48,005 nt of DNA, taken from Candidatus Pelagibacterales bacterium. Its GTDB lineage: Bacteria; Pseudomonadota; Alphaproteobacteria; TMED109. The position numbers and the translations under genes were made by a program. The stretch lies in NCBI GenBank assembly GCA_002715265.1, contig PAYS01000013.1, positions 4,316-52,320 of the forward strand, given 5' to 3'. Under the pieces are notes generated by a model, which had not been told where the DNA came from, made no database searches, and was given only the letters and a program-made list of their open reading frames with translations. Below, one piece after another: positions 9,096 through 23,719 of this stretch; position 1 is the first letter of the stretch; each line of letters opens with the position of its first letter.

Positions 9096-9839
9096 CTACC
9101 AAGTTTTAACAGTATAATAATTACTTTGTAAATTGGTATTATCATTAAATAAATAAATAGGTTTTAATTTTATCTGGTTGCTATTAGGTAACGCAATAAA
9201 ATTTGTACATAATGTTCCATAATTATTTTTTTTTATTATATTTATGGCTGCTAATGGATTGTTATCAGGAAAATTTTTACTTGAAAGAAAATTTTTCCAA
9301 GATGTCCATAAATTTTTTTCAGGTTCAGGTGGTAATAATTTATTATAATTATTCAGGTTATATCTAAAGCGGTGAGAATCTAAACTGTTGATGTCATGAC
9401 TGTCAATAAAGTGTTGGCCTGGATCAATATAATTTAATTTTAGTTTTTTAGTGTTATCATTTTTAACCCATATTGCCTTTTCATTATTGGCAATAAATAG
9501 ATTGAAAGGTCTCCAATTAGTAGCATTCAAACTTGACAAATAACTGATAATATCATTCATATTATTCTTTTTAAGAACGTCTATAACTAAATTACCTCGG
9601 CTTTCTTTTTTATTATCTACACCTAAACTATTAGATCTGTTTAATATTGTAGCTACTATCCCATTTTTATTTAAACCAAGCCAAGTTCCACCAGCTACTT
9701 GATCTTTACCTCCAATAATATCTTTCCCCCAATATTTATCTGGAGGGAGCCAATTTCTATTAATCATCTCATCTCTATTTCCTCCTAATATTAATGGCCA
9801 TTTATTTTCAGGACGAAACAAAATCAATAGGGTACACAT
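9096..9839 (-). CDS. NRDE (TANGO2) family protein
   Basis: Member of the NRDE/TANGO2 family, named for the GGNRDE motif, seen here at residues 19-24 (LGGNRDEM). The protein opens MCTLLILF; the conserved Cys directly after the initiator Met is the proposed N-terminal nucleophile of this Ntn-hydrolase-like fold. Further family blocks are GGTWLGLNKNGIVATILNR and ESRGNLVIDVL. It is 247 residues, with no signal peptide or membrane segment. Its biochemical role is not settled; eukaryotic relatives are linked to haem trafficking and lipid/CoA homeostasis. It sits between purB and purC in the purine run, 20 bases after purB, so it is probably co-transcribed with housekeeping genes. Confidence 0.85.
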   Translation of the reverse strand: MCTLLILFRPENKWPLILGGNRDEMINRNWLPPDKYWGKDIIGGKDQVAGGTWLGLNKNGIVATILNRSNSLGVDNKKESRGNLVIDVLKKNNMNDIISYLSSLNATNWRPFNLFIANNEKAIWVKNDNTKKLKLNYIDPGQHFIDSHDINSLDSHRFRYNLNNYNKLLPPEPEKNLWTSWKNFLSSKNFPDNNPLAAINIIKKNNYGTLCTNFIALPNSNQIKLKPIYLFNDNTNLQSNYYTVKTW

Positions 9840-11259: not shown

Positions 11260-12336
11260 TTGTTAGTAGATGGTATAAATACTAGATCAATAGACTATAA
11301 TAATGATTATACTGTATCAATTATAGATCAGACACTTTTGCCTCATAATTTAGAAATAAAAGTAATAAAAAATTTAGATGATTCAATAATTGCTATTAAG
11401 GATATGATGGTTAGAGGAGCTCCCTTAATAGGTGTGACAGCTAGTTATGGAATGACATTAGCAATTAAAGATAATCCATCTGATGAAAATATATATTCCG
11501 CATTTGAAAAATTAGTCAATACGAGACCAACTGCAGTGGACTTAAAATGGGCACTTGAAAACTTAATGAAAGAAATTCTACCTATAAATAAAAATGATAG
11601 GTTTGATTATTCATGGCAATTATCAAAAAGTTTATTAGAAGATTCTGTGCAACAGTGTTCTGATATAGGAGATCATGGCTTAAATTTAATAAAAAATATT
11701 AAAAAAAATAAAGTGAATATATTAACTCATTGTAACGCTGGTTGGTTGGCGTGTGTAGATTGGGGAACTGCTCTTGCTCCAATTTATAAAGCGTATGATT
11801 ATGGTATTGATGTTCATGTTTGGGTTGATGAAACTCGCCCTAGATCACAAGGAGCATCTCTAACCTGTTGGGAATTAAATAAACATGGGATACCAAATAC
11901 ATTAATAGTTGATAACGCTGGAGGCCATTTAATGCAAAAAGGTAAGGTAGATATGTGTTTGGTAGGGTCTGATAGAACTGCTAGCAATGGAGATGTTTGT
12001 AATAAAATCGGTACTTATATGAAAGCATTATGTGCATTTGATAATAACATTCCTTTTTATGTTGCATTGCCTGAATCTACTATAGATTTTAAATTAGAAT
12101 ATGGTGTTAATAATATAAATATTGAAGAAAGATCAACTAAAGAAATTAGTCATATTAAAGGTTTAGATAATAATGGCAATATTAATGTAGTAAAAATTAT
12201 TGATAAAGATAATAATATTTTAAATCCTGGTTTTGATGTAACTCCTAATAAATATGTAAGCAAATTGATTACTAATAAAGGAGTATGCGAAGCTTCTACT
12301 AACGGAATAAAAGGACTGTTTAATGAAAAATATTAA
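11260..12336 (+). CDS. mtnA: 5-(methylthio)ribose-1-phosphate isomerase
   Basis: Isomerises 5-methylthioribose 1-phosphate to the ribulose 1-phosphate; the family also acts on 5-deoxyribose 1-phosphate. The 358-residue protein has VRGAPLIGVTASYGM, the catalytic Cys158 in THCNAGWLA, DETRPRSQGA, and the catalytic Asp238 in LVGSDRTASNGDV. These mark MtnA as distinct from eIF2B subunits. The start is TTG at 11260, preceded by a good AAAGGAGA about 10 bases upstream. Its 3' end overlaps the following aldolase gene by 14 bases, so the two are translationally linked. No mtnP, mtnK or methionine-cycle gene is next to it in this window. Confidence 0.93.
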   Translation: MLVDGINTRSIDYNNDYTVSIIDQTLLPHNLEIKVIKNLDDSIIAIKDMMVRGAPLIGVTASYGMTLAIKDNPSDENIYSAFEKLVNTRPTAVDLKWALENLMKEILPINKNDRFDYSWQLSKSLLEDSVQQCSDIGDHGLNLIKNIKKNKVNILTHCNAGWLACVDWGTALAPIYKAYDYGIDVHVWVDETRPRSQGASLTCWELNKHGIPNTLIVDNAGGHLMQKGKVDMCLVGSDRTASNGDVCNKIGTYMKALCAFDNNIPFYVALPESTIDFKLEYGVNNINIEERSTKEISHIKGLDNNGNINVVKIIDKDNNILNPGFDVTPNKYVSKLITNKGVCEASTNGIKGLFNEKY

Positions 12337-12970
12337 AACAGAAATTATTAATTATGCAAAGAAACTTAATTTAACAAATTTATCTCCACTAAGATCAGGT
12401 AATATTTCAGTAAGAACAATTTTAAATAATAAAAAAGGTTTTTATATTACGCCATCAGGTATTAAGTATGAAAAATTAAAAACTAAGGATATAGTTTTTG
12501 TGTCTTTGGATGGTAAATATGATAAAGAAGGATTAGATCCTTCGTCAGAATGGCGCTTCCACCAAGATATATATAAAGATAAAAGCACAGTTAAGGCAAT
12601 AGTTCACGCTCATTCTCCATATTCAACAGCGTTATCTTCATTTAGAAAAAATATTCCATCTTTTCATTATATGGTTGCTTTAGCAGGTGGTAATTCTATT
12701 AAATGTGCTAAATATGCTACTTATGGAACAAGAGAATTATCAGTAAACATATTACAGGCTCTAAAAAATAGATATGCATGTTTAATATCAAACCATGGTC
12801 AAGTATCTATTGGTTCAAATATAGCTAATGCTTTTGAATTAGCTGAAGAAGTAGAAAATTTGTCTCATCAATATTTACTTACAATGATGATTGGTAAGCC
12901 AAAGTTATTAACAAATGTAGAAATGAATAATGTTTTAAAAAAAATAAAAAGTTATAAAAATAATTTATAA
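12323..12970 (+). CDS. Class II aldolase, FucA/Ald2 type
   Basis: Zinc-dependent class II aldolase/adducin-family enzyme of 215 residues. Metal ligands are visible at His95 and His97 (VHAHS) and His158 (SNHGQ). The glutamate of true aldolases is present as Glu76 in DPSSEWRFH, a segment matching L-fuculose-1-phosphate aldolase, as do HYMVALAGGNSI and YATYGTREL. The gene overlaps mtnA, so MtnB dehydratase is the obvious guess, but the FucA-like active site argues for aldol cleavage. Predicted reaction (inference): 5-methylthio- or 5-deoxyribulose 1-phosphate to dihydroxyacetone phosphate plus methylthioacetaldehyde or acetaldehyde. Fuculose phosphate itself is unlikely, as no fucose genes are near. 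Confidence 0.82.
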   Translation: MKNIKTEIINYAKKLNLTNLSPLRSGNISVRTILNNKKGFYITPSGIKYEKLKTKDIVFVSLDGKYDKEGLDPSSEWRFHQDIYKDKSTVKAIVHAHSPYSTALSSFRKNIPSFHYMVALAGGNSIKCAKYATYGTRELSVNILQALKNRYACLISNHGQVSIGSNIANAFELAEEVENLSHQYLLTMMIGKPKLLTNVEMNNVLKKIKSYKNNL

Positions 12971-12984
12971 AGTAGGAAATAAAT

Positions 12985-14004
12985 ATGAAAATATGGGAAG
13001 TAAAAAATTTAGGTTTAGATAATTTAAGTTTGTCTACAAAAGATATTATGCCAATGGCAGATAATGAAGTACTTGTAAATATGAAAGCTGCTACTTTAAA
13101 TTTTAGAGATTTAATTATGATAGATGGAGGGTATGGGGCTACAGGAGGAAAGCCTCCATTTATACCTATTTCAGATGGAGCAGGATTAGTTAAAAATGTT
13201 GGTAAAAATGTCAAAAATTTTAAAGTAGGTGATATTGTTATTCCTCCATTTTTTAAAGGTTGGGATTCAGGAGATATAAAAGAAAATACTATTTTTTCAT
13301 CTCTGGGAGGAAAAGAACAAGGAGTAATGCAAGAATATATGATATTTAAAGAAAACAATATAGTACACGCACCTAATCAATGGAGTTGTTTGGAGGCGGC
13401 TACTCTACCATGTGCTGCACTAACTGCTTGGAGGACAATAGTAACTGAAGGTAAGGTTAATAAAGATTCTATTGTATTAGTTCAAGGTTTAGGTGGTGTA
13501 TCTATATTTGCGATCCAAATAGCTAAAATGTTTAATGCTCAAGTAGTAGCTACGACATCAAGTGAAGATAGAATGAAAATTGCTAAAAATATTGGGGCTG
13601 ATTTTGTAATTAATTATAAAAAAGATAATAATTGGTGGAAAAAAGTCCTTGAGGTAACTGATAATAAAGGTGCTGATATAATAGTTGAAGTTGGAGGAAG
13701 TAAAACATTAGAACAATCAATAAAGTGTTCAAGAATAGGTGCAGTAATTGGAGTCATAGGAGTTTTATCAGGAGGTATTGCTGAATTGCCTATAGGTCGG
13801 GTCATCTATAAGGCCTCAAGGTTAATAGGTATTACTTGTGGTAATAAAAAAGAGTTAACTGATATGATTAATAAGTTTAATTCATCTAATACTAAACCCA
13901 TTATTGACTCTATTTATAAGTTTGAGGATTTACCAAAGGCTTTAAGATATATGAGTAAAGGAAATCATTTAGGTAAAATTGCTATAGATTTTGATAAGGA
14001 ATAA
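12985..14004 (+). CDS. Zinc-independent MDR oxidoreductase
   Basis: Medium-chain dehydrogenase/reductase of the quinone-oxidoreductase/alcohol-dehydrogenase superfamily, 339 residues. An N-terminal GroES-like part (ATLNFRDLIMIDGGYG, PFIPISDGAGLV) is followed by a Rossmann domain with VLVQGLGGVSIFAIQIAK and a later VEVGGSKTL strand. The catalytic-zinc signature GHE is replaced by SDGAG, and the usual catalytic Cys is an Asn in NFRD, so this is a zinc-free, probably NADPH-using, member. It follows the aldolase by 14 bases and precedes a response regulator by 7. Reduction of the aldehyde released by the aldolase is a plausible but unproven role. Confidence 0.8.
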   Translation: MKIWEVKNLGLDNLSLSTKDIMPMADNEVLVNMKAATLNFRDLIMIDGGYGATGGKPPFIPISDGAGLVKNVGKNVKNFKVGDIVIPPFFKGWDSGDIKENTIFSSLGGKEQGVMQEYMIFKENNIVHAPNQWSCLEAATLPCAALTAWRTIVTEGKVNKDSIVLVQGLGGVSIFAIQIAKMFNAQVVATTSSEDRMKIAKNIGADFVINYKKDNNWWKKVLEVTDNKGADIIVEVGGSKTLEQSIKCSRIGAVIGVIGVLSGGIAELPIGRVIYKASRLIGITCGNKKELTDMINKFNSSNTKPIIDSIYKFEDLPKALRYMSKGNHLGKIAIDFDKE

Positions 14005-14011
14005 TATTTAT

Positions 14012-14731
14012 ATGATAAAAATAGTTATTATTGAAGATGATCAAATATGGATTAATTTGCTTGAGGATGAATTACCTGAAAAAATTGATGATTGTAAGGT
14101 CTACGGTATTTTATTTGTCATGGAAAATTATGAAGAAATTATTGAACAAATAAGGCAAATAGATCCAGATATAGCTATTTTGGATATAAATATGGGTAAT
14201 AATCCTAAATCAGGTATTAAGCTTGCCAATAGAATAAATAAAGTGATGCCTACCTTAGATTATATATTTTTATCTTCTCAAAAATCTGAAGACCCATTTA
14301 TATTAAAGGAAGCTTCATATACCAAAGCTAAGGTTTTTTTAGATAAAAACGATTTTAAAAATGATTTAGACTCATTAGCAAATTATATTAAAAACAATAT
14401 AAAAAATAAAATAGAAAATTTAGCAATTTTAAATTTAAATCCTATGATTATTAATTTTGATGCTCGTACTGTTTATTTAAATGACATAGAAATTCATTTT
14501 ACAAAGATGGAATTTGAAATACTTTCATATATGGCTAAAAATAAAAATAGGGTGTTTTCAAAAGTTCAACTTTACAGATTTGCTACTGATGAAAATGTAC
14601 AAGAAGATACTTTTGAAAACACTATTGTAAGCCATATAAAATCTATTAGAGATAAATTCAAAAAAATTGATAAGAATTTTAATCCTATTAAAACAGTTCA
14701 ATCATATGGCTATAAGTATGATCAAAGTTGA
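14012..14731 (+). CDS. OmpR/PhoB-type response regulator
   Basis: Two-component response regulator of 239 residues. The receiver domain has the acidic pocket Glu8-Asp9-Asp10, phospho-acceptor Asp58 (AILDINMG), and Lys112 (FLDKND). The C-terminal winged helix (about 150-239) has FTKMEFEILSYMAKNKNRVFS, ENTIVSHIKSIRDKF and the wing VQSYGYKY. The ATG at 14012 is preferred, with AAGGA 11 bases upstream; the in-frame opening at 13991 would add seven residues and overlap the MDR gene. It follows the MDR gene by 7 bases, yet the likely partner kinase lies beyond an opposite-strand lipoprotein gene. Its last 10 bases overlap the end of that gene tail to tail. Confidence 0.9.
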   Translation: MIKIVIIEDDQIWINLLEDELPEKIDDCKVYGILFVMENYEEIIEQIRQIDPDIAILDINMGNNPKSGIKLANRINKVMPTLDYIFLSSQKSEDPFILKEASYTKAKVFLDKNDFKNDLDSLANYIKNNIKNKIENLAILNLNPMIINFDARTVYLNDIEIHFTKMEFEILSYMAKNKNRVFSKVQLYRFATDENVQEDTFENTIVSHIKSIRDKFKKIDKNFNPIKTVQSYGYKYDQS

Positions 14732-15681
14732 GAAATTTTATTATTATTATTTATAAAAATTTCAACTCTTCTATTTTGTGGTTCTTTAATACCATCCTTT
14801 GTTTGAATTTTTGGCTTTGTTTCACCATAATAAAATGTGCTAATATTATAAGCTGATAAACCTTTTTTTAATAGAAATTGTTTCACAGAATTGGCACGTA
14901 ATTTTGATAAAATTAAGTTGTATTCTTTTGTGCCAGATGTATCAGTATGGCCAATTATTTCAAAGATAGTATTTTCTGCCTCTGCATATTTTTTTATAAT
15001 ATCATTTAATTTATTTTGAAGGTTAAAATCTAGCTTAAATTTGTCATGCGCAAAATATATCTCAAATTTTTGTTTATTATCTATATTTGTAATTTTTTTT
15101 ATTTCTTTAATTTCCTTTATTTGTTGAGCTTCTTCATTAGTTATTTTTGGTTTTGATGAAATATTTTTATCATCATTATTATTTCTAATTATTTTTGCCA
15201 TTTTATTTAAATTATTATTCATCATTTCATAACAATCTTTAATATGCTCATCTTGCCAACCTTCTTCTAATTGTTCTAACCAACAATCAAAACCAATCTG
15301 TGTTTTTGCTAATATTTGTGGATGATTTTTTAATAGTTTAGAATTATGGAAATCTAATATTTTATTTCTTTTATCATTTGCTTCCTTTATATAATTATTA
15401 GCAATATCCCAATTTTTTACTTCTTCCGGATAAACCTTTTTATTTAATTTTGCATTAATTCCTTTATCTGCAAAATAAGCAGCATCTATTTCGTCATGCA
15501 TTTCATTCATTTCAGATAATGCGAACTTTAAATAAGCATGTGATAATTCTTCTGAAAATTTATTTGTAGAATCTGGCATTTCTTGTAGTTTTTCAATTTT
15601 ATGGTAAGCACAATTACTCATAAATAATGAAATAAATATAATTATTAATGTTTGTTTTTTTATATTAAGAAATTTGTTCAT
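14722..15681 (-). CDS. OmpA-family outer-membrane lipoprotein
   Basis: Predicted lipoprotein of 319 residues: basic N terminus, hydrophobic stretch (TLIIIFISLF) and a lipobox-like FMSNC with Cys24, slightly irregular because Asn occupies -1. Residues 30-200 form a helical, charged region with no family I recognise, containing two further Cys. The C-terminal domain (about 205-315) is OmpA-like: IYFAHDKFKLD, then GHTDTSGTKEYNLILSKLRA with the Asp and Arg that hold diaminopimelate of peptidoglycan, and NRRVEIFI. It lies between the regulator and the sensor-kinase/efflux operon and is transcribed away from the latter across a 75-base divergent gap. A role in cell-wall anchoring of the efflux module is inference. 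Confidence 0.82.
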   Translation of the reverse strand: MNKFLNIKKQTLIIIFISLFMSNCAYHKIEKLQEMPDSTNKFSEELSHAYLKFALSEMNEMHDEIDAAYFADKGINAKLNKKVYPEEVKNWDIANNYIKEANDKRNKILDFHNSKLLKNHPQILAKTQIGFDCWLEQLEEGWQDEHIKDCYEMMNNNLNKMAKIIRNNNDDKNISSKPKITNEEAQQIKEIKEIKKITNIDNKQKFEIYFAHDKFKLDFNLQNKLNDIIKKYAEAENTIFEIIGHTDTSGTKEYNLILSKLRANSVKQFLLKKGLSAYNISTFYYGETKPKIQTKDGIKEPQNRRVEIFINNNNKISQL

Positions 15682-15756
15682 AATAACTCCTTTTATTTAA
15701 TTAGTTAGATATGCCATAGTAATATTGAGAATTAGTTTTTAAATTATGTATATTTT

Positions 15757-17169
15757 ATGAAGATATTGAGATCTAGTATGAATTATGGTGAAAAAATTAG
15801 GATTTTTTTAGTTTTCTTTTTGTCTACATTATTCTTATTAATTGGGATATTTGCTACTATTATTATTAGTGGTCTTTATTTTAGTCCAGTTAGTAAAGAT
15901 TTCTCAATTGAAACGGTTAATAAATATAATAATGTGCTTAAAGATGATATGGAAATTATATCAAGAGTTCTTAATGATGAAAAAATTGATAAAGAAGAAA
16001 TTAAAGTTTTAGAAAATATAAATTTTGATAGTAATAATATTGGTAAATTTAAAATTATTTCTAATACATATAGATTAACACATCAATACTCGAGAGGTGA
16101 AATTCGTCATTATGTTTCTATAGAAAAGCCATTATCAAAAACAATAGGTAATTTTACTATAAAAATTGTTATTTTTATTAAAGATAACTTAGTCAAGAAT
16201 GTTTATGAAAATTGTAATGATTTTTCATTTTTGCCATTTAAGGACGAAAATTTAGGCTCACAATATTATTGCGCAAATAAAGATATAAGTACGTTAAGAG
16301 TATATTCATCAAATCTAAAATATGATAGTTTTATTATTTCTACAGTATTGCCTGTAAAAGATTCACTAAATAATACTTTAGGTTTTATACAAATAATAAC
16401 TGATGCAAATGTGCTAGAGGAAAAACTTGGTAAATTTTTAATATCAATATTATCACCTTTATTAATATGTATGATATTTGTAGGGTTATTTATATTATAT
16501 TTACAAAACTTTTTAAGTAAGAGAATTAAAATTAATTTTATAAATGCAAATAATATTGCACATAATTTAAAAAATAAGACTAATGCTATTAGGTATTACT
16601 CACAAAAAAAATTTGAGACGACAGATGAGGCTAAAAACTCCTTTATAAAAATATTACAAATATTGGATAATGTGGACAATTTCATAGAGACAACTTTAAA
16701 TACAGCCAAGCAGAGTTATCATAGTTATAGAAGTAAGAACATAAAGCCTCAAACAGATTTTTCTCAAATAATTCAGATAATAAAAGACTTGTATATATCG
16801 CATAAAATTATATATAGAGGTGATTATTCATATGGTGTTTTAGCCGAAAAGAATAAATTAATAGACGCATTAACAGCAATTATAGATAACAGTTTGTATT
16901 GGAATGCCAAACATAAACCAATAATTATAGAAACTAGAAAGAAAATAAATATACTCGAAATTCGTATAATGGATCACGGACCTGGATTAAACCAAAATGA
17001 TAAAAATAATATTTTTAATGAAGGTTTTAGTAAGTCGGGTGGAAATGGATTAGGGCTGTATGTTGCAAAAAATATTATTAAATCTTTTGATGGTGAGGTA
17101 ATTGCATCAAATAGAGATAAAGAAGGCTTAATTATGACAGTTAAATTACGTTTATTAGAGAAAGTATAA
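15757..17169 (+). CDS. Sensor histidine kinase
   Basis: Membrane sensor kinase, 470 residues. Two membrane segments (about 15-42 and 228-250) flank a roughly 185-residue periplasmic domain with no fold I recognise. A short cytoplasmic link leads to the dimerisation helix with His269 in NIAHNLKNKTNAIR, a variant H-box without the usual Glu-Leu-Arg-x-Pro. The ATPase domain has the N-box (AIIDNSLYWN, Asn378), G1 (DHGPGL, 406-411) and G2 (GGNGLGLYVAKNII, from 428). It is the first gene of a plus-strand unit: the TolC-like gene starts 3 bases after its stop. The most likely partner is the response regulator at 14012-14731. Confidence 0.88.
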   Translation: MKILRSSMNYGEKIRIFLVFFLSTLFLLIGIFATIIISGLYFSPVSKDFSIETVNKYNNVLKDDMEIISRVLNDEKIDKEEIKVLENINFDSNNIGKFKIISNTYRLTHQYSRGEIRHYVSIEKPLSKTIGNFTIKIVIFIKDNLVKNVYENCNDFSFLPFKDENLGSQYYCANKDISTLRVYSSNLKYDSFIISTVLPVKDSLNNTLGFIQIITDANVLEEKLGKFLISILSPLLICMIFVGLFILYLQNFLSKRIKINFINANNIAHNLKNKTNAIRYYSQKKFETTDEAKNSFIKILQILDNVDNFIETTLNTAKQSYHSYRSKNIKPQTDFSQIIQIIKDLYISHKIIYRGDYSYGVLAEKNKLIDALTAIIDNSLYWNAKHKPIIIETRKKINILEIRIMDHGPGLNQNDKNNIFNEGFSKSGGNGLGLYVAKNIIKSFDGEVIASNRDKEGLIMTVKLRLLEKV

Positions 17170-17172
17170 AAT

Positions 17173-18609
17173 ATGCACAATCATCTTTTTTATATTTTTT
17201 TTGTTATAATGAGTTTTATGATGACTTCATGTAAAACGACTGATTTTGTATCAGAAGAAACTATTGATACAAAGAATGAAGTTAGTAAAATTATAAATTT
17301 TAATAAAAATAACAAAGAATTAGGTGAATTTTTAAATAATCATAATTTAGCCATTCCAACAGAGGGTAATCCCTGGGGACCAGAGCTATTAGTTATGGTA
17401 GGTTTGTATAGTAATGATAATTTAAAAGTTAAGAGGGCAGAATATGGAGTAAAAGCCGCGGAAATTCAAATAATTGCGGCAGGTTACCCAAAAATAGTTA
17501 ATCCCTTATTTGAGTATCATACATTAGGTAAGCCGTTTACACTTGGTTTAAGTATAGAAATTCCCAATCAAAAAAGTTCTATTAAAGATTTGAAAATTGA
17601 TATAGCAAAAATTAATGCTAAAAATATTATTTTAAATTTGTTGAATCCTGCATGGAATGTAAGATCAGAAATTTTACTTAGTCTTGTTGATGTATTAAGG
17701 CATGAGGCTGATTTGTTAATTATGCAAGAAATAAATAAAAAATTAGCTTCAAATTTTCAGCTTGCGTTAAAAAATTATGAGAAAGGTATTATACCCTTTA
17801 CAGAACTAAATCAATTTGAGAAATTGCTTGAAGTGAACAAAAATGATTTAATATTGTCTAAATCTAATATTCATGCATCTAGAATAAAATTAGCTAGTGT
17901 GTTATCAGTTCCAGCTGATTTTATACTACCTTTAGATTTAATATATAATTATGAACATTTATTTAATTACAATATAAATAATGAAGTATATTTAAATAAT
18001 ATTAATCATGCACTTTTGAATAGAGCCGATATTATAAAGTCTTTATCAGACTATGCTAAAGTTGAAACAGAATTAAGATTACTAGTTGTTGAAAATAATA
18101 ATAAGATCATATTATTTAAGCCTGCATTATTATGGGATCAAACGGACTTGATATTTAGTTTGGCTGGATCTTTTATTCCAAATAATAATTTAACAATTTC
18201 AGCTAAATTAGAAAAACAAATTGCAAAAAGAGATTTGTATAAAGCAAAGTTCATCGCAAATCAATCTTTGGCCTTAAATCAAATACAAACTAATTACGCG
18301 AATTTAATAATATCTGAGTCACATTATCTCTCTGCTATTTCTAAGTATGAATTTAATAAATTACAATATGAGTTAATGAAAAAAAGGCAAGAAAATGGAG
18401 ATGCAAGTTTGTTAGATACGCAATTAGAAGAGTTAAATGTTTTAAAGGCTTATCAAATTATAGAAAATGCTAAATTTGATAAGTTAAAATCTATTTTAAG
18501 TTTAGAAAAAGTATTAGGTCATGATTTAATTAGTTATAAAACTTTGCCAGATTCATCTTTTATGCCTATTAATTATATTTTAAATAATATAGAGGTAAAT
18601 ACTAAATGA
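17173..18609 (+). CDS. TolC-like outer-membrane efflux lipoprotein
   Basis: Outer-membrane factor of a tripartite efflux pump, 478 residues. A signal peptide ends in MMTSC, giving lipidated Cys20, as in CusC/OprM-type proteins. The remainder is long, mostly helical OEP repeats: EYGVKAAEIQIIAAGYPKIVNPLFEY early, then paired helices such as LASNFQLALKNYEKGIIPFTELNQFE and, in the second half, LNQIQTNYANLIISE and YELMKKRQENGDASLLDT. The G-D-ASLLDTQ pattern near residue 412 is the usual OEP end-of-helix motif. It begins 3 bases after the kinase and its stop overlaps the next gene by 4 bases (ATGA). Substrate cannot be told from sequence. Confidence 0.83.
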   Translation: MHNHLFYIFFVIMSFMMTSCKTTDFVSEETIDTKNEVSKIINFNKNNKELGEFLNNHNLAIPTEGNPWGPELLVMVGLYSNDNLKVKRAEYGVKAAEIQIIAAGYPKIVNPLFEYHTLGKPFTLGLSIEIPNQKSSIKDLKIDIAKINAKNIILNLLNPAWNVRSEILLSLVDVLRHEADLLIMQEINKKLASNFQLALKNYEKGIIPFTELNQFEKLLEVNKNDLILSKSNIHASRIKLASVLSVPADFILPLDLIYNYEHLFNYNINNEVYLNNINHALLNRADIIKSLSDYAKVETELRLLVVENNNKIILFKPALLWDQTDLIFSLAGSFIPNNNLTISAKLEKQIAKRDLYKAKFIANQSLALNQIQTNYANLIISESHYLSAISKYEFNKLQYELMKKRQENGDASLLDTQLEELNVLKAYQIIENAKFDKLKSILSLEKVLGHDLISYKTLPDSSFMPINYILNNIEVNTK

Positions 18610-19640
18610 GAAATTTCATATACTTATTAGTTGGAATATTTTTTGGCTTTTTTCTTAACAATTTACTTCACACAAATTATTTTTCAAATGAAGAAAGTGC
18701 AGTTTCTATCAATGATACAGATGAAGATGATGATGATGGAGATGAAGATGATGAAATAGATAGGGTTATTATTTTCAATAATAAAATGTCCATAAAAATG
18801 GATCAAGAGGATATATTGTCATCAGGAATACGCGCTGCTCTATTCGATAATCAAATAAATTCTTACGATATTACTTCAAGAGCTTTAAGTATTTCTAGTA
18901 GTTCGTATTTTAAAATGGTAAACGAGTATGATTTTTTAGTATTACAGCTACAAAAAATGATGGAAAAACTTAATTATATTAATTCTAAATATGATAGATT
19001 ACTTGAATTATATGAAGTTCAAGGAAGTGTTGCTTTAAAAGATATTGAAAAAGTAAAACATAATATTGAGAACGTTAAATTAGATATTCAAGAAATAAAC
19101 TTAAAAACTAAAGTTTTATTAAATAATATAAAAATAAAATTTGGAGATTTAATTCTGGATGATATTAAAACTGATAGAAAGTTTTATAATTCCTTAATTA
19201 ATAAAAATGCTTCTTTTATTTTGTTAGAAGATTGTGAAATAGAGAATTCATATTTTATAGATAATAAAATATTAAATTTTTTAACATATTGGACATTAAA
19301 TACAACACTACATGGTGAAGTGGGTTTATATTATATTGCTGATAAATATTATAATCCAGGCCAAAAATTAATAGCTCATTCATCCTCTAATACTAAAGTG
19401 TCTGGATTTTTAATTCCAGAAAGCTCACTCGTTTATTTTCAGGGTCAAATATGGGTATATTTTTTTAATGAAAATGAATCTATTTATACAAGAGAAGCAA
19501 TCGATAAAATATTATACAAAAACAACGATGAAGTTTTTGTCCCATTTGAATATAGTCAAGTAAATATAGTGGTTGAAGGAGGTCAAATATTATTGGCGGA
19601 AGAGTTTAGATCTCAAATAATGCGTGAAGATGACGATTAA
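18606..19640 (+). CDS. Divergent membrane-fusion protein (HlyD/CusB-like)
   Basis: Probable periplasmic adaptor of the adjacent RND pump, 344 residues. An uncleaved or N-terminal membrane anchor (YLLVGIFFGFFLNNLL) is followed by a strikingly acidic tract at 37-52, almost all Asp/Glu. A helical hairpin follows (about 105-175, from LQLQKMMEKLNYINSKYDRL to IKFGDLI), and then a C-terminal part that matches the adaptor pattern VPESxxxxxxGxxWVxx, seen as LIPESSLVYFQGQIWVYFF, and ending IVVEGGQILLAEE. The lipoyl half-motifs are hard to see. Recognition depends mostly on context: it overlaps the TolC-like gene by 4 bases and precedes the RND gene by 5. The C terminus is again acidic (REDDD). Confidence 0.7.
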   Translation: MRNFIYLLVGIFFGFFLNNLLHTNYFSNEESAVSINDTDEDDDDGDEDDEIDRVIIFNNKMSIKMDQEDILSSGIRAALFDNQINSYDITSRALSISSSSYFKMVNEYDFLVLQLQKMMEKLNYINSKYDRLLELYEVQGSVALKDIEKVKHNIENVKLDIQEINLKTKVLLNNIKIKFGDLILDDIKTDRKFYNSLINKNASFILLEDCEIENSYFIDNKILNFLTYWTLNTTLHGEVGLYYIADKYYNPGQKLIAHSSSNTKVSGFLIPESSLVYFQGQIWVYFFNENESIYTREAIDKILYKNNDEVFVPFEYSQVNIVVEGGQILLAEEFRSQIMREDDD

Positions 19641-19645
19641 TTGTT

Positions 19646-22600
19646 ATGGTATTTCCTTTAATAAGATATTCTATATACAAGCCAGCCATAGTAGTTGCAT
19701 TTGCTTTTTTATTGTTAGTTTATTGTGGATGGAAATTATTTAATACTTCATTAGATATTTTTCCTGAGTTTTCTCCAAAATTAGTTGTAGTTCAAACAGA
19801 AGCACCAGGAATGTCTACAGAACAAGTCGAATTGTTAATAACTAGACCTATTGAATCTTTATTAAATGGTATACCAGAAGTGATGCATGTAAGATCTGAG
19901 TCTATTGCTGGACTTTCGGTAATTACCATAACATTTATGGATAATTCTAATCGAACTGAAAATAGCCAAATGGTATTGGAAAAATTAAATGGTGTTAGTA
20001 GTATTTTACCAGAAAGTTCAATGCATCCAAAAATTATGCCATTATCATCTTCTGCTGCAACTATTATGACTATTGGTTTTACATCTAATGAGAAATCATT
20101 ATTAGAAGTGAGATCCATTATAGAAAATAATGTTTCTCCAACATTATTATCTACAGAGGGAGTTGCAGACTTAAATATTTTTGGAGGGTACGAAAAAAGA
20201 CTAGAAATTTTATTAAAGGAAAATATCTTTAAAAAAACAGATTTAACTATAAGAGACATATTATCAGCACTAAATTCTGTTAATTTAACAGTTACAGGAA
20301 ATATTATTACTACTAATCAAGAGATAAATGTAATTTCTAAAAAAAATGTTTCAATAGAAAAAATAGAATCTATTTTAGTAAAATCTAAGAATGGTAAAAG
20401 TTGGAAATTAAATGAAATTGCATCAATAAAATTTTCTAAAAGTAAACAAATAAATAAAGCAAGTATAGAGACCGAAAAAGGAGTTCTTTTAATGGTAATC
20501 GGTCAGTTAAATGCTGATACAGTTGCAGTTACGAAAAGATTGGATATGGTTATTAATGAACTTAGTCCACTATTAGAAAATAACAATATTCAAATTCATT
20601 CAGATATATTTAGGCCTGCTAATTATATATTAACTAGTTTACACAGTATTATTGACCATTTAGCAATGGGTGGTATTTTAGTATTATTTATTTTAATTAT
20701 TTTTATGGCTAATATAAAAGCTGCATTAATTTCAGCATTAGCAATACCTATATCTTTGACTCTAGCAGCTATATTGACTTTATTAACTGGTACATCACTT
20801 AATATAATGGTGATTGGAGGTTTAGCCATAGCATTAGGTGAAGTGGTAGATGATGCAATAATTGATGTGGAAAATATCTTAAGAAGGTTAAGGGAAAATA
20901 GAGCATTAGCTAAGCCAGTTAATTCATTAAAAGTAATATATCGTTCCTCATTAGAAGTTAGAGGTTCTGTAATTTATGCTTCTTTAATTGTGATGTTAGT
21001 TTTTGTTCCTTTATTAATGTTATCAGGGGTAGTTGGTAGAATGTTTGCTCCATTAGGAATAGCATATATACTTGCAATATTTTCATCACTTATTTCTGCA
21101 TTAACAATTACGCCAGCACTTTCAAGTTTAGGTTTTAGAAATTTAAAACAAACTAAAGACCCACTTATAATAAGAATATTAAGTCCTATTTATGAAAAAA
21201 TGATTTATACTATCTCATTAAATCCAAAATTTAATTCTATTTTAGCACTTTTATTCTGTTGCTTGGGTTTATTATTAGTTCCCAAACTTAATATTGGCTT
21301 TCTTCCAGAGTTAAGAGAAGGGCATTATATGATTCATACATCATCTCTCACAGGAACTTCATTAGAGGAGACTATGAGAATAGGTGATCATATTACTGAA
21401 AAAGTTTTAGCCATTGAAGGTGTAAAAACTATGTCGCAGTGGGCCGGAAGGGCAGAACGTGGAGCTGATACTTTTGGAAGTCATTATTCTGAATTTGAAG
21501 TGGAGTTAAATCATTTATCAGGAAAAGAACAGCAAAATATTTATGATGAAATGCGAAATATTTTGCATAGAACTCCAGGTATTACTTTCGAGGCAAATTC
21601 TTTTTTAATAGAAAGAGTAGATGAAACTTCATCAGGTTTTACTTCACCCATTGTAATCCAATTATTTGGAAATAATTTGGATGAGTTAGATAAGGTAGCA
21701 AATCAATTATTTCTAAAATTAAAGCAGTCAAATTTGTTAACAGATATACAAATTAAATCAGTTCTTGGTAAACCGCAGATAGAGATTGAACCTAAGTTAG
21801 ATAAATTAGATTTATATAATATTTCTCTCGAAGAATTTTATTCTGTGATAAATGCTTCATTAGATGGAATTATAATAGGAGATTTTTATCATAATTCTAT
21901 CAAAATTCCTATGGTATTAACATTAATAGATAATAACTTTAAAAGTCACATAACGAATATTGAAAATATTGAAATCAGAGGAATTGATAATAAATTAGTT
22001 AAATTGAAGGATTTAGCAAAGATTACTATAGGACAAGGTCGTTATAATATTTATCACGATGCTGGTAGGAGAGTGCAAATTATTACTGCTGATGTTATAG
22101 GCAACACTACTGAGTTAGGAATAAAAGAAATTACAGATATAATTAATAAAGAAAAATTTGATTCTAGTGTCTATGTAAAAATTGTTGGCACAGCAGTTGA
22201 AGGAGCTGAAGCCAGAAAAGAGTTAATTATAATTTCTTTTATAGTTTTAATTGGTATATTATTTTTAGTTTTCATAGCTATTAATAATGTAAAAAATACT
22301 TTTTTGATATTGGTGAATCTGCCTTTCGCTTTAGTAGGTGGTTTAATTGCTGCCTTTTTCACTGGTGGTTTATTATCAATTGGATCTATTGTTGGTTTTG
22401 TAACTTTATTTGGAATTACCTTAAGAAATTCAATTATGTTAGTATCTCATTATCAAAGGTTAGTATTTATAGAAGGGGAATTTTGGAATCAGCATACAGC
22501 TATAAAGGGTGCAAAGGAAAGATTACCATCAATATTAATGACGGGATTGGTGACAGGACTAGCTATGCTGCCAATAGCATTGGATGCAGACAATCCTGGT

Positions 22601-22723
22601 CGTGAAATAATGGGACCTATGGCCGCAATAATTATAGGAGGCTTAACTTCTTCAACTATTTTAAACTTATTTATTTTGCCAGCTTTTATGTTAGCCTTTG
22701 GTTCGTTTGTAAAAAGAAGTTAA
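19646..22723 (+). CDS. RND efflux pump permease (CusA/CzcA-like)
   Basis: Inner-membrane proton-driven RND pump, 1025 residues, the usual length. The N-terminal helix (IYKPAIVVAFAFLLLVYCGW) leads to porter sequence ITRPIESLLNGIPEVMHVRS, close to the CzcA/CusA branch. TM4 carries LAIALGEVVDDAIIDVENIL (about 391-410), with paired Asp for proton relay and the V(E/D)N motif shared with heavy-metal pumps. The second half repeats the architecture (AFFTGGLLSIGSIVGFVTLFGITLRNSIML). The TM4 sequence is not a classical copper/silver or zinc/cobalt signature, so I do not assign a metal. It ends the HK-OEP-MFP-RND unit and converges on dusA after 6 bases. Confidence 0.9.
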   Translation: MVFPLIRYSIYKPAIVVAFAFLLLVYCGWKLFNTSLDIFPEFSPKLVVVQTEAPGMSTEQVELLITRPIESLLNGIPEVMHVRSESIAGLSVITITFMDNSNRTENSQMVLEKLNGVSSILPESSMHPKIMPLSSSAATIMTIGFTSNEKSLLEVRSIIENNVSPTLLSTEGVADLNIFGGYEKRLEILLKENIFKKTDLTIRDILSALNSVNLTVTGNIITTNQEINVISKKNVSIEKIESILVKSKNGKSWKLNEIASIKFSKSKQINKASIETEKGVLLMVIGQLNADTVAVTKRLDMVINELSPLLENNNIQIHSDIFRPANYILTSLHSIIDHLAMGGILVLFILIIFMANIKAALISALAIPISLTLAAILTLLTGTSLNIMVIGGLAIALGEVVDDAIIDVENILRRLRENRALAKPVNSLKVIYRSSLEVRGSVIYASLIVMLVFVPLLMLSGVVGRMFAPLGIAYILAIFSSLISALTITPALSSLGFRNLKQTKDPLIIRILSPIYEKMIYTISLNPKFNSILALLFCCLGLLLVPKLNIGFLPELREGHYMIHTSSLTGTSLEETMRIGDHITEKVLAIEGVKTMSQWAGRAERGADTFGSHYSEFEVELNHLSGKEQQNIYDEMRNILHRTPGITFEANSFLIERVDETSSGFTSPIVIQLFGNNLDELDKVANQLFLKLKQSNLLTDIQIKSVLGKPQIEIEPKLDKLDLYNISLEEFYSVINASLDGIIIGDFYHNSIKIPMVLTLIDNNFKSHITNIENIEIRGIDNKLVKLKDLAKITIGQGRYNIYHDAGRRVQIITADVIGNTTELGIKEITDIINKEKFDSSVYVKIVGTAVEGAEARKELIIISFIVLIGILFLVFIAINNVKNTFLILVNLPFALVGGLIAAFFTGGLLSIGSIVGFVTLFGITLRNSIMLVSHYQRLVFIEGEFWNQHTAIKGAKERLPSILMTGLVTGLAMLPIALDADNPGREIMGPMAAIIIGGLTSSTILNLFILPAFMLAFGSFVKRS

Positions 22724-22729
22724 TTAAGA

Positions 22730-23719
22730 TTAAGCTGCTAATTCTAATTTGCTTTCAATGTTATCAATAATTTTTAATAATTCTTCTAATGGCTTTTTAT
22801 TATTGGCAACATTATTTAATTCCTGTTTCCAATATCTACTTCCGTCGCATGAATACAAAAGGTTAAATAAAGGTTTAATAATTCTTCGAGGAGAATGACC
22901 TAGTTTTAAATATTTTTGAGAGTAATTTAAGTACTTTTCTAATATTTCTGTTCTAGTTTGTTCAACGTATTTATCTCCAAAAATAACACTATCTGTTTTT
23001 ATAAATTCCCATGGATTATCCCAGGCATATCTCCCAACCATTACTCCATCATAAGTTTTTAATAATTTTTTAGATTCTTTGAGGCTATTTATACCTCCAT
23101 TAATAGTAAATTTTAGTTGTTTAAATGAATTTTTAATATATTTAACTCTTTCGTAGTTTAGAGGTGGAATAGTTCTATTCTCATGCGGCGTTAGACCTTT
23201 CAATATAGCTTTTCTAGCATGTATTATATATGAACTTATGTTTTTCTTATGAGTGATATTGATAAAATTATATAAAAATTCCTCATTATCAAAATTATCT
23301 ACTCCAATTCGTGTTTTGATTGTAATAGGAATATTTGTGTGTTCTTGTAAAGCGTCAATAATTTCTGCTACTAATATTGGTTTTTTCATTAAAATCGCAC
23401 CAAAGTCACCTTTTATAACTTTATCAGAAGGGCAACCGCAATTTAAGTTTATATATTTAAAATTAGAGTTTTTAATGACTTTTGATAATTTTGATGCTTG
23501 CTGTGGATCGGAGCACCCTATCTGTAATACCGTCGGTCCTTTGCATTCATTTTCTATTTTAAATCGATTAAATTTATCATGTAAAATTGCATTAGCATGA
23601 ATCATTTCAGTATATAAAATAATATTCTTACTAATTAATCTCATCAGGTTTCTATAATGTAAGTCTGTTCTATCCATCATAGGGGCTATTGAGAATTCAT
23701 GCATATTATTATTTTTCAT
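22730..23719 (-). CDS. dusA: tRNA-dihydrouridine(20/20a) synthase DusA
   Basis: FMN-dependent reduction of uridine to dihydrouridine in the tRNA D-loop. The 329-residue TIM-barrel protein has IAPMMDRTDLHYRNLMRLIS (DusA type rather than DusB/C), QIGCSDPQQ, the catalytic Cys96 in NLNCGCPSDKV, IKTRIGVDN, the substrate/FMN region IIHARKAILKGLTP, and NGGINS and GRYAWDNPW for phosphate binding. The ATG at 23719 overlaps the end of hemB by 11 bases; a second ATG at 23704 would remove five residues (MKNNN) without loss of motifs and may be the real start. It probably shares a transcript with hemB. Confidence 0.94.
   Translation of the reverse strand: MKNNNMHEFSIAPMMDRTDLHYRNLMRLISKNIILYTEMIHANAILHDKFNRFKIENECKGPTVLQIGCSDPQQASKLSKVIKNSNFKYINLNCGCPSDKVIKGDFGAILMKKPILVAEIIDALQEHTNIPITIKTRIGVDNFDNEEFLYNFINITHKKNISSYIIHARKAILKGLTPHENRTIPPLNYERVKYIKNSFKQLKFTINGGINSLKESKKLLKTYDGVMVGRYAWDNPWEFIKTDSVIFGDKYVEQTRTEILEKYLNYSQKYLKLGHSPRRIIKPLFNLLYSCDGSRYWKQELNNVANNKKPLEELLKIIDNIESKLELAA

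Follow-up and report, generated by a model that had tools for sequence, protein, structure and literature searches.

The regulator and histidine kinase genes of this locus probably encode an OmpR-family two-component system that is split around an older lipoprotein gene, ompA, and a single predicted operator would control ompA in one direction and the kinase with its downstream genes in the other, in a role in envelope homeostasis. The locus lies in a stretch of 48,005 nucleotides (the window) on contig C13 of the draft genome G000, which is 1.67 Mb long and 89% complete. G000 belongs to the TMED109/MarineAlpha9 lineage, a group of AT-rich marine Alphaproteobacteria (PMC8879329). By sequence comparison we consider gene content, synteny, separability of the genes, pairing of regulator and kinase by elimination, and conservation and uniqueness of the operator to be established.

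All six genes (regulator, ompA, kinase, OEP, adaptor and permease) are present in the order first reported, and the junctions are exact, with 3 bases between kinase and OEP, an overlap of 4 bases between OEP and adaptor and 5 bases between adaptor and permease (Table 1). The regulator, which the earlier note described as a lone gene split from its kinase, is indeed split from it; it does not stand alone, being the final gene of a tight plus-strand row of mtnA, class II aldolase, Zn-dependent alcohol dehydrogenase and regulator, with a gap of 7 bases. The three metabolic genes of this row resemble a salvage pathway of the methylthioribose/DHAP-shunt type. The row is kept at orthologous loci, with the aldolase replaced in one genome, G011, where the substitute is a 672-aa aldolase-dehydrogenase fusion (L074:4782-6800). 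The 3' ends of regulator and ompA overlap by 10 bases. For the kinase, 15778 is a more probable start than 15757, because the upstream ATG lies in a conserved repeat and meets an immediate in-frame stop in four relatives (G009, G010, G013 and G014). Scans for sigma-70 promoters and terminators gave no excess over shuffled sequences in the AT-rich DNA of the locus. Further upstream, a TANGO2-family protein (PF05742) is encoded between purC and purB at 9096-9839 of the window, a position kept across the family.

Table 1. Features of the locus and its flanks, in window coordinates
Feature	Position	Strand	Basis
mtnA, class II aldolase, Zn-dependent alcohol dehydrogenase	11260..14004	+	upstream of regulator, same direction
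OmpR/PhoB-type response regulator (REC + winged helix)	14012..14731	+	PF00072 and PF00486 above cut-off
OmpA-domain outer-membrane lipoprotein	14722..15681	-	PF00691, 3.7e-18
Third operator arm (predicted), ATATTGAGAAT	15722..15732	+	exactly 22 bp upstream of tandem repeat, in 11-bp phase
Predicted regulator operator, 11-bp-period direct repeat TTATGTATATT-TTATGAAGATA (window TTATGTATATTTTATGAAGATA)	15744..15765	+	conserved in 8/8 genomes
Membrane histidine kinase	15778..17169 (probable start; ORF opens at 15757)	+	HATPase_c PF02518, 8.3e-14; H-box AHNLKNKTNAI
TolC/CusC-type outer-membrane lipoprotein (OEP)	17173..18609	+	PF02321, 2.3e-10; Cys20 invariant
Putative periplasmic adaptor (MFP), highly divergent	18606..19640	+	context, relatives, low-confidence fold match
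RND permease, HME-like	19646..22723	+	PF00873 (ACR_tran), 2e-192; TM4 motif GEVVDDAIIDVEN
dus	22730..23719	-	PF01207; convergent with pump (also in g6 and g8)

Both the family and the order that we searched consist of one set of 28 genomes in eight genera. The majority are incomplete drafts (54-97%), and absences outside an intact locus are therefore soft. The arrangement of the window, with its flanks, recurs in five genomes of genus g6 (G009, G010, G013, G014 and G008, the last with the order spread over two contigs), so that all six genes are syntenic in genera g1 and g6. A six-gene order shared at the same chromosomal place is more than chance. The smaller topology, in which the regulator and the kinase read in one direction on either side of an opposite-strand ompA, is shared by eight genomes from three genera.

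This synteny is one of the grounds for the view put forward in the earlier note, by which the six genes would form a single dedicated sensing/efflux module, the kinase being a sensor of the pump's substrate and the lipoprotein the link between the pump complex and peptidoglycan. It is joined by the tight packing of the kinase and pump genes, which makes co-transcription likely, and by the retention in OmpA of the peptidoglycan-contact residues D247 and R262. Obligatory co-occurrence, however, fails elsewhere. In genus g8 an OEP-adaptor-permease set (permease about 47% identical) faces dus in the same convergent arrangement as in the window, yet neither the two-component genes nor the lipoprotein gene accompany it, a case of the kind that the earlier note itself named as a refutation, and a distant alphaproteobacterium (L141) likewise carries the pump, with a permease 48% identical, without the other three genes. 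Conversely, the regulator-ompA-kinase arrangement occurs without the pump at the locus in G007 (genus g5), where dus follows directly after the kinase, and in G011 (g6), where a 255-aa gene lies between kinase and dus; no adaptor match was found elsewhere in either draft. In g3, g4 and g7 a positional orthologue of ompA, 33-40% identical, sits in a same-strand row dus-ompA-purB, with the other five genes missing. An obligatory six-gene module is refuted by these cases, and we regard a dedicated module of this kind as decidedly improbable. Because the pump and the other genes are separable both ways, the lipoprotein, present without an adjoining pump in g3, g4, g7, G007 and G011, need not tether the pump complex, and the two genomes that keep regulator, lipoprotein and kinase without a pump at the locus exclude a kinase that senses the pump's substrate only.

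The locus thus appears to consist of three separable parts: the regulator and kinase pair, an older ompA and an older, optional pump. The window still has dus, ompA and purB on a single strand in the order seen in g3, g4 and g7, and the history that we infer as simplest brought a plus-strand block with the regulator at its end to one side of ompA and a second plus-strand block, headed by the kinase, to the other. The 255-aa gene that takes the pump's place behind the kinase in G011 (L074:11082-11849) has a signal-peptide-like start and matched no Pfam or NCBIfam model; judged by eye, its product looks like a small beta-barrel outer-membrane protein. The flank beyond dus also varies: a four-gene ABC transporter of the branched-chain amino acid type lies between dus and hemB in g3, g4 and g7 (L095:5106-8344, also L096-L102), whereas the two are direct neighbours in the window, and in g8 ABC transporter-like genes are likewise close to dus.

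The OmpA lipoprotein itself is predicted to be lipidated, and its lipid-anchor cysteine, C24, is invariant, as are the peptidoglycan-contact Asp and Arg mentioned above. Its N-terminal domain is conserved and widespread among Alphaproteobacteria, and none of 14 inspected loci with homologues of the lipoprotein has a regulator, kinase or pump gene alongside. Taken together with gene order, ompA would be an ancestral, older member of the dus-ompA-purB row, independent of the other five genes.

That the regulator and the kinase belong together despite their separation, as the earlier note proposed, is borne out by a census of the host genome. Five response regulators score above the Pfam cut-off in G000 (on C3, C9 and C13, and two on C14); the other four each adjoin a kinase of their own, which leaves the regulator and the kinase of the locus over. 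There are nine HATPase_c matches, four of them beside the other regulators, the kinase of the locus being the fifth and the rest belonging to proteins of 585-816 aa whose genes have no regulator nearby. On this census we reject the alternative that the regulator is paired with another kinase, a possible refutation raised in the earlier note. Moreover, orthologues of regulator and kinase co-occur in g1, g5 and g6 and were found in no other genus of the family searched, with one exception to the co-occurrence, G012, where the contig ends inside the kinase. Judged by elimination and co-occurrence, the two are a true pair, though split. A single-protein scan of genome contigs found no such kinase elsewhere, and a kinase profile run over 385 genomes of the class gave high scores within this kinase family only, the other matches being weak, ordinarily arranged pairs in f50. 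Among the remaining pairs of G000, the one on C3 (L083:7025-9069) is an OmpR-type regulator and a kinase in adjacent genes, for which the OmpR and RpaB models are the best matches, below their cut-offs.

The sequences of the pair are a mixture of the conserved and the unusual. In the regulator, E8/D9/D10, the phospho-acceptor D58 and K112 are invariant among orthologues. The kinase has an HATPase_c domain with N and G boxes, and PF02518 is matched by all six aligned members, none of which matches the HisKA model. The H-box HNLKNKT is atypical in that the usual acidic residue after the His and the following Pro are missing, and kinase activity is therefore not certain. The sensor domain evolves fast, with 25-28% identity between genera versus 35-47% for the kinase part, and has two invariant cysteines, C153 and C172, in its periplasmic portion. 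The AlphaFold model of the full-length kinase (mean pLDDT 70.8) is too uncertain for naming a sensor fold.

The permease has its relatives in MarineAlpha9_Bin3, TMED109, SP299 and similar marine alphaproteobacterial drafts, and ZneA and CusA are the nearest solved structures. Against TIGR00914 (CusA/CzcA) it scores 479 bits, below the cut-off of 701; the L141 relative scores 681. The residues that align with what we take to be the three-methionine substrate site of CusA (M573, M623 and M672) are H564, Y614 and E660, and with His, Tyr and Glu in the Met positions a CusA-type copper site is not supported. The adaptor matched no Pfam or NCBIfam model, HlyD/biotin-lipoyl and TIGR01730 included; in fold comparisons AcrA and MacA came out best, at a weak E of 3e-3 on a low-confidence model (pLDDT 62), and its L141 relative reaches 52 bits against TIGR01730, below the cut-off of 95. 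Behind its membrane anchor lies an acidic N-terminal stretch, and it also has an extended hairpin and a C-terminus, EDDD, that is invariant. The acidic tail reads QIMxEDDD in the window and its relatives and RWQIRGDDDD in the distant L141 copy. Kinase and pump genes, which the earlier note took to be one unit, are probably on one transcript given their packing. Gene order across the relatives suggests that the pump is nonetheless an older, optional neighbour, separable both ways.

The spacer between the divergent ompA and kinase genes holds the putative operator, two copies of a direct repeat with an 11-bp period and the consensus TTATGAAGATTTTATGAAGA. Sites of OmpR-family regulators frequently consist of paired 6-7 bp repeats separated by 4 bp (PMC10609481). 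The pattern TTATGWAKATTTWATGWAGR has one mismatch-free match per genome, at the ompA/kinase spacer, in all eight genomes in which this spot is assembled; there was no perfect match elsewhere in the nine regulator-bearing genomes and none in 11 genomes of the family without the regulator. The third arm agrees with the consensus arm at 51 of 66 positions summed over six genomes, compared with 35 for the next best offset, and none of 20,000 shuffles reaches 51. In seven of the eight genomes the distance between the start of the repeat and the ompA ATG is 62-63 nt (in G007 it is 101 nt), and in genomes with a clear kinase start the repeat ends 12-16 nt before that start. This spacing fits activation of ompA and would put the regulator on the kinase promoter, so that feedback could occur. 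Another winged-helix regulator could be what binds the operator, though the repeat is missing wherever the regulator is missing. When one or two mismatches were allowed, to look for a wider regulon, sites were about as common as those of a reversed control pattern, and the sole single-mismatch site, on C88 of G007, has unrelated genes as neighbours; we therefore claim no further targets.

The position of the operator bears on two other explanations. The first is that the pair is of the classical efflux-inducing kind, like BaeSR, CusRS or CzcRS, and serves mainly the pump, with ompA a bystander at a shared promoter. Two-component systems often control metal pumps (PMC10295115), the permease is HME-like with ZneA and CusA its nearest solved structures, and the kinase-pump junction is short, measuring 3 bases in the window and about 33 in g6. 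Yet in two genera the system is retained even where the pump is missing, the distance from operator to ompA start is fixed in all but one of the eight genomes, and ompA, elsewhere part of the continuous dus-ompA-purB row, has gained a promoter region of its own where the system is present. We consider an arrangement that serves mainly the pump unlikely. The second explanation is a frozen accident, with genes that are neighbours by chance and a kinase or operator now without function. The unusual H-box, the low identity of the sensor domain between genera and the patchy distribution would fit it. Against this, receiver and ATP-binding residues are invariant, open reading frames have been maintained over deep divergence, and the operator is conserved base by base within an otherwise diverged spacer and is unique in each genome, and we give a frozen accident very little credence.

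In the split two-component system that we favour, a periplasmic or envelope signal would alter the kinase through its periplasmic sensor domain, the kinase would phosphorylate the regulator, and the phosphorylated regulator would bind the one tandem-repeat operator in the divergent promoter. From there it would control the lipoprotein one way and the kinase with its downstream genes the other, the genes carried behind the kinase being the RND pump in most genomes, an apparent outer-membrane protein in one and nothing in another. The most likely role would be envelope homeostasis, that is, adjustment of outer-membrane/peptidoglycan tethering plus envelope efflux where the pump is present, because both the lipoprotein and the pump are envelope proteins. 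Phosphotransfer, operator binding, the sign of regulation, the signal, the envelope role and the substrate of the pump belong to the inferred side of this model. More tentatively, and with rather less than even confidence, we suggest that this may be a system with a single strong target, in which the main output is the surrounded old ompA and the kinase transcript serves as a dock for exchangeable envelope genes (pump, outer-membrane protein or none), such that feedback, tethering and efflux would be set together. For bacteria whose two-component systems number only about five, one predicted target would make for an unusually simple link between envelope sensing, tethering and efflux. The related genomes amount to a natural experiment in which the pump is present, replaced or absent and sensor and operator stay; gene neighbourhood alone would have misled on function.

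Among known systems, the nearest functional parallel is BaeSR of enterobacteria, whose envelope-stress two-component genes lie beside the RND operon mdtABCD under the control of the regulator, with a small core regulon that includes the system itself (PMC4107485). Both loci have an envelope-type pair beside an RND operon. However, baeSR lie together downstream of the pump, whereas here the kinase leads and the regulator lies beyond an opposite-strand lipoprotein gene; the pump of the locus is HME-like and dispensable, and the BaeR and BaeS cut-offs are missed by a wide margin (43 of 380 and 45 of 603 bits). The nearest alphaproteobacterial parallel is CenK-CenR of Rhodobacter and Caulobacter, an envelope system of the OmpR family whose motif is the direct repeat TGA-N8-TGA (PMC9275681). 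The g6 operator consensus contains TGA-N8-TGA, a resemblance of six bases only, which reads TGT in four genomes and is a lead from a comparison with CenR by motif alone. CenR differs in having many targets (31 motif-bearing units, as against one strong site here), and the regulator of the locus is not a widely conserved orthologue. We do not claim membership in either BaeSR or CenKR.

The remaining parallels concern single components. With CusRS-CusCFBA, CzcRS-CzcCBA and ZneA the locus shares a tripartite pump with a lipoprotein OEP and a permease closest to ZneA and CusA; it differs in the missed TIGR00914 cut-off, in the His, Tyr and Glu of the three-methionine site, in the TM4 motif and in an adaptor without a recognisable HlyD/CusB domain. 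Lipoproteins of the Pal/YiaD type have the same lipid anchor and C-terminal peptidoglycan-binding OmpA domain, but the lipoprotein of the locus has its own conserved N-terminal domain and falls below every NCBIfam cut-off. The proteobacterial dedicated sortase system (PdsR, PdsS, PdsO) supplies the best match of the regulator (TIGR03787) and further matches of OmpA (TIGR03789) and the kinase (TIGR03785), yet all three are far below cut-off and there is no sortase among the neighbours examined. The label "undescribed" is fair for the arrangement of the locus; kinases beside RND pump operons as such are already known from mdtABCD-baeSR. What is new here is the 11-bp-period direct repeat with its third arm in the divergent promoter of ompA and the kinase.
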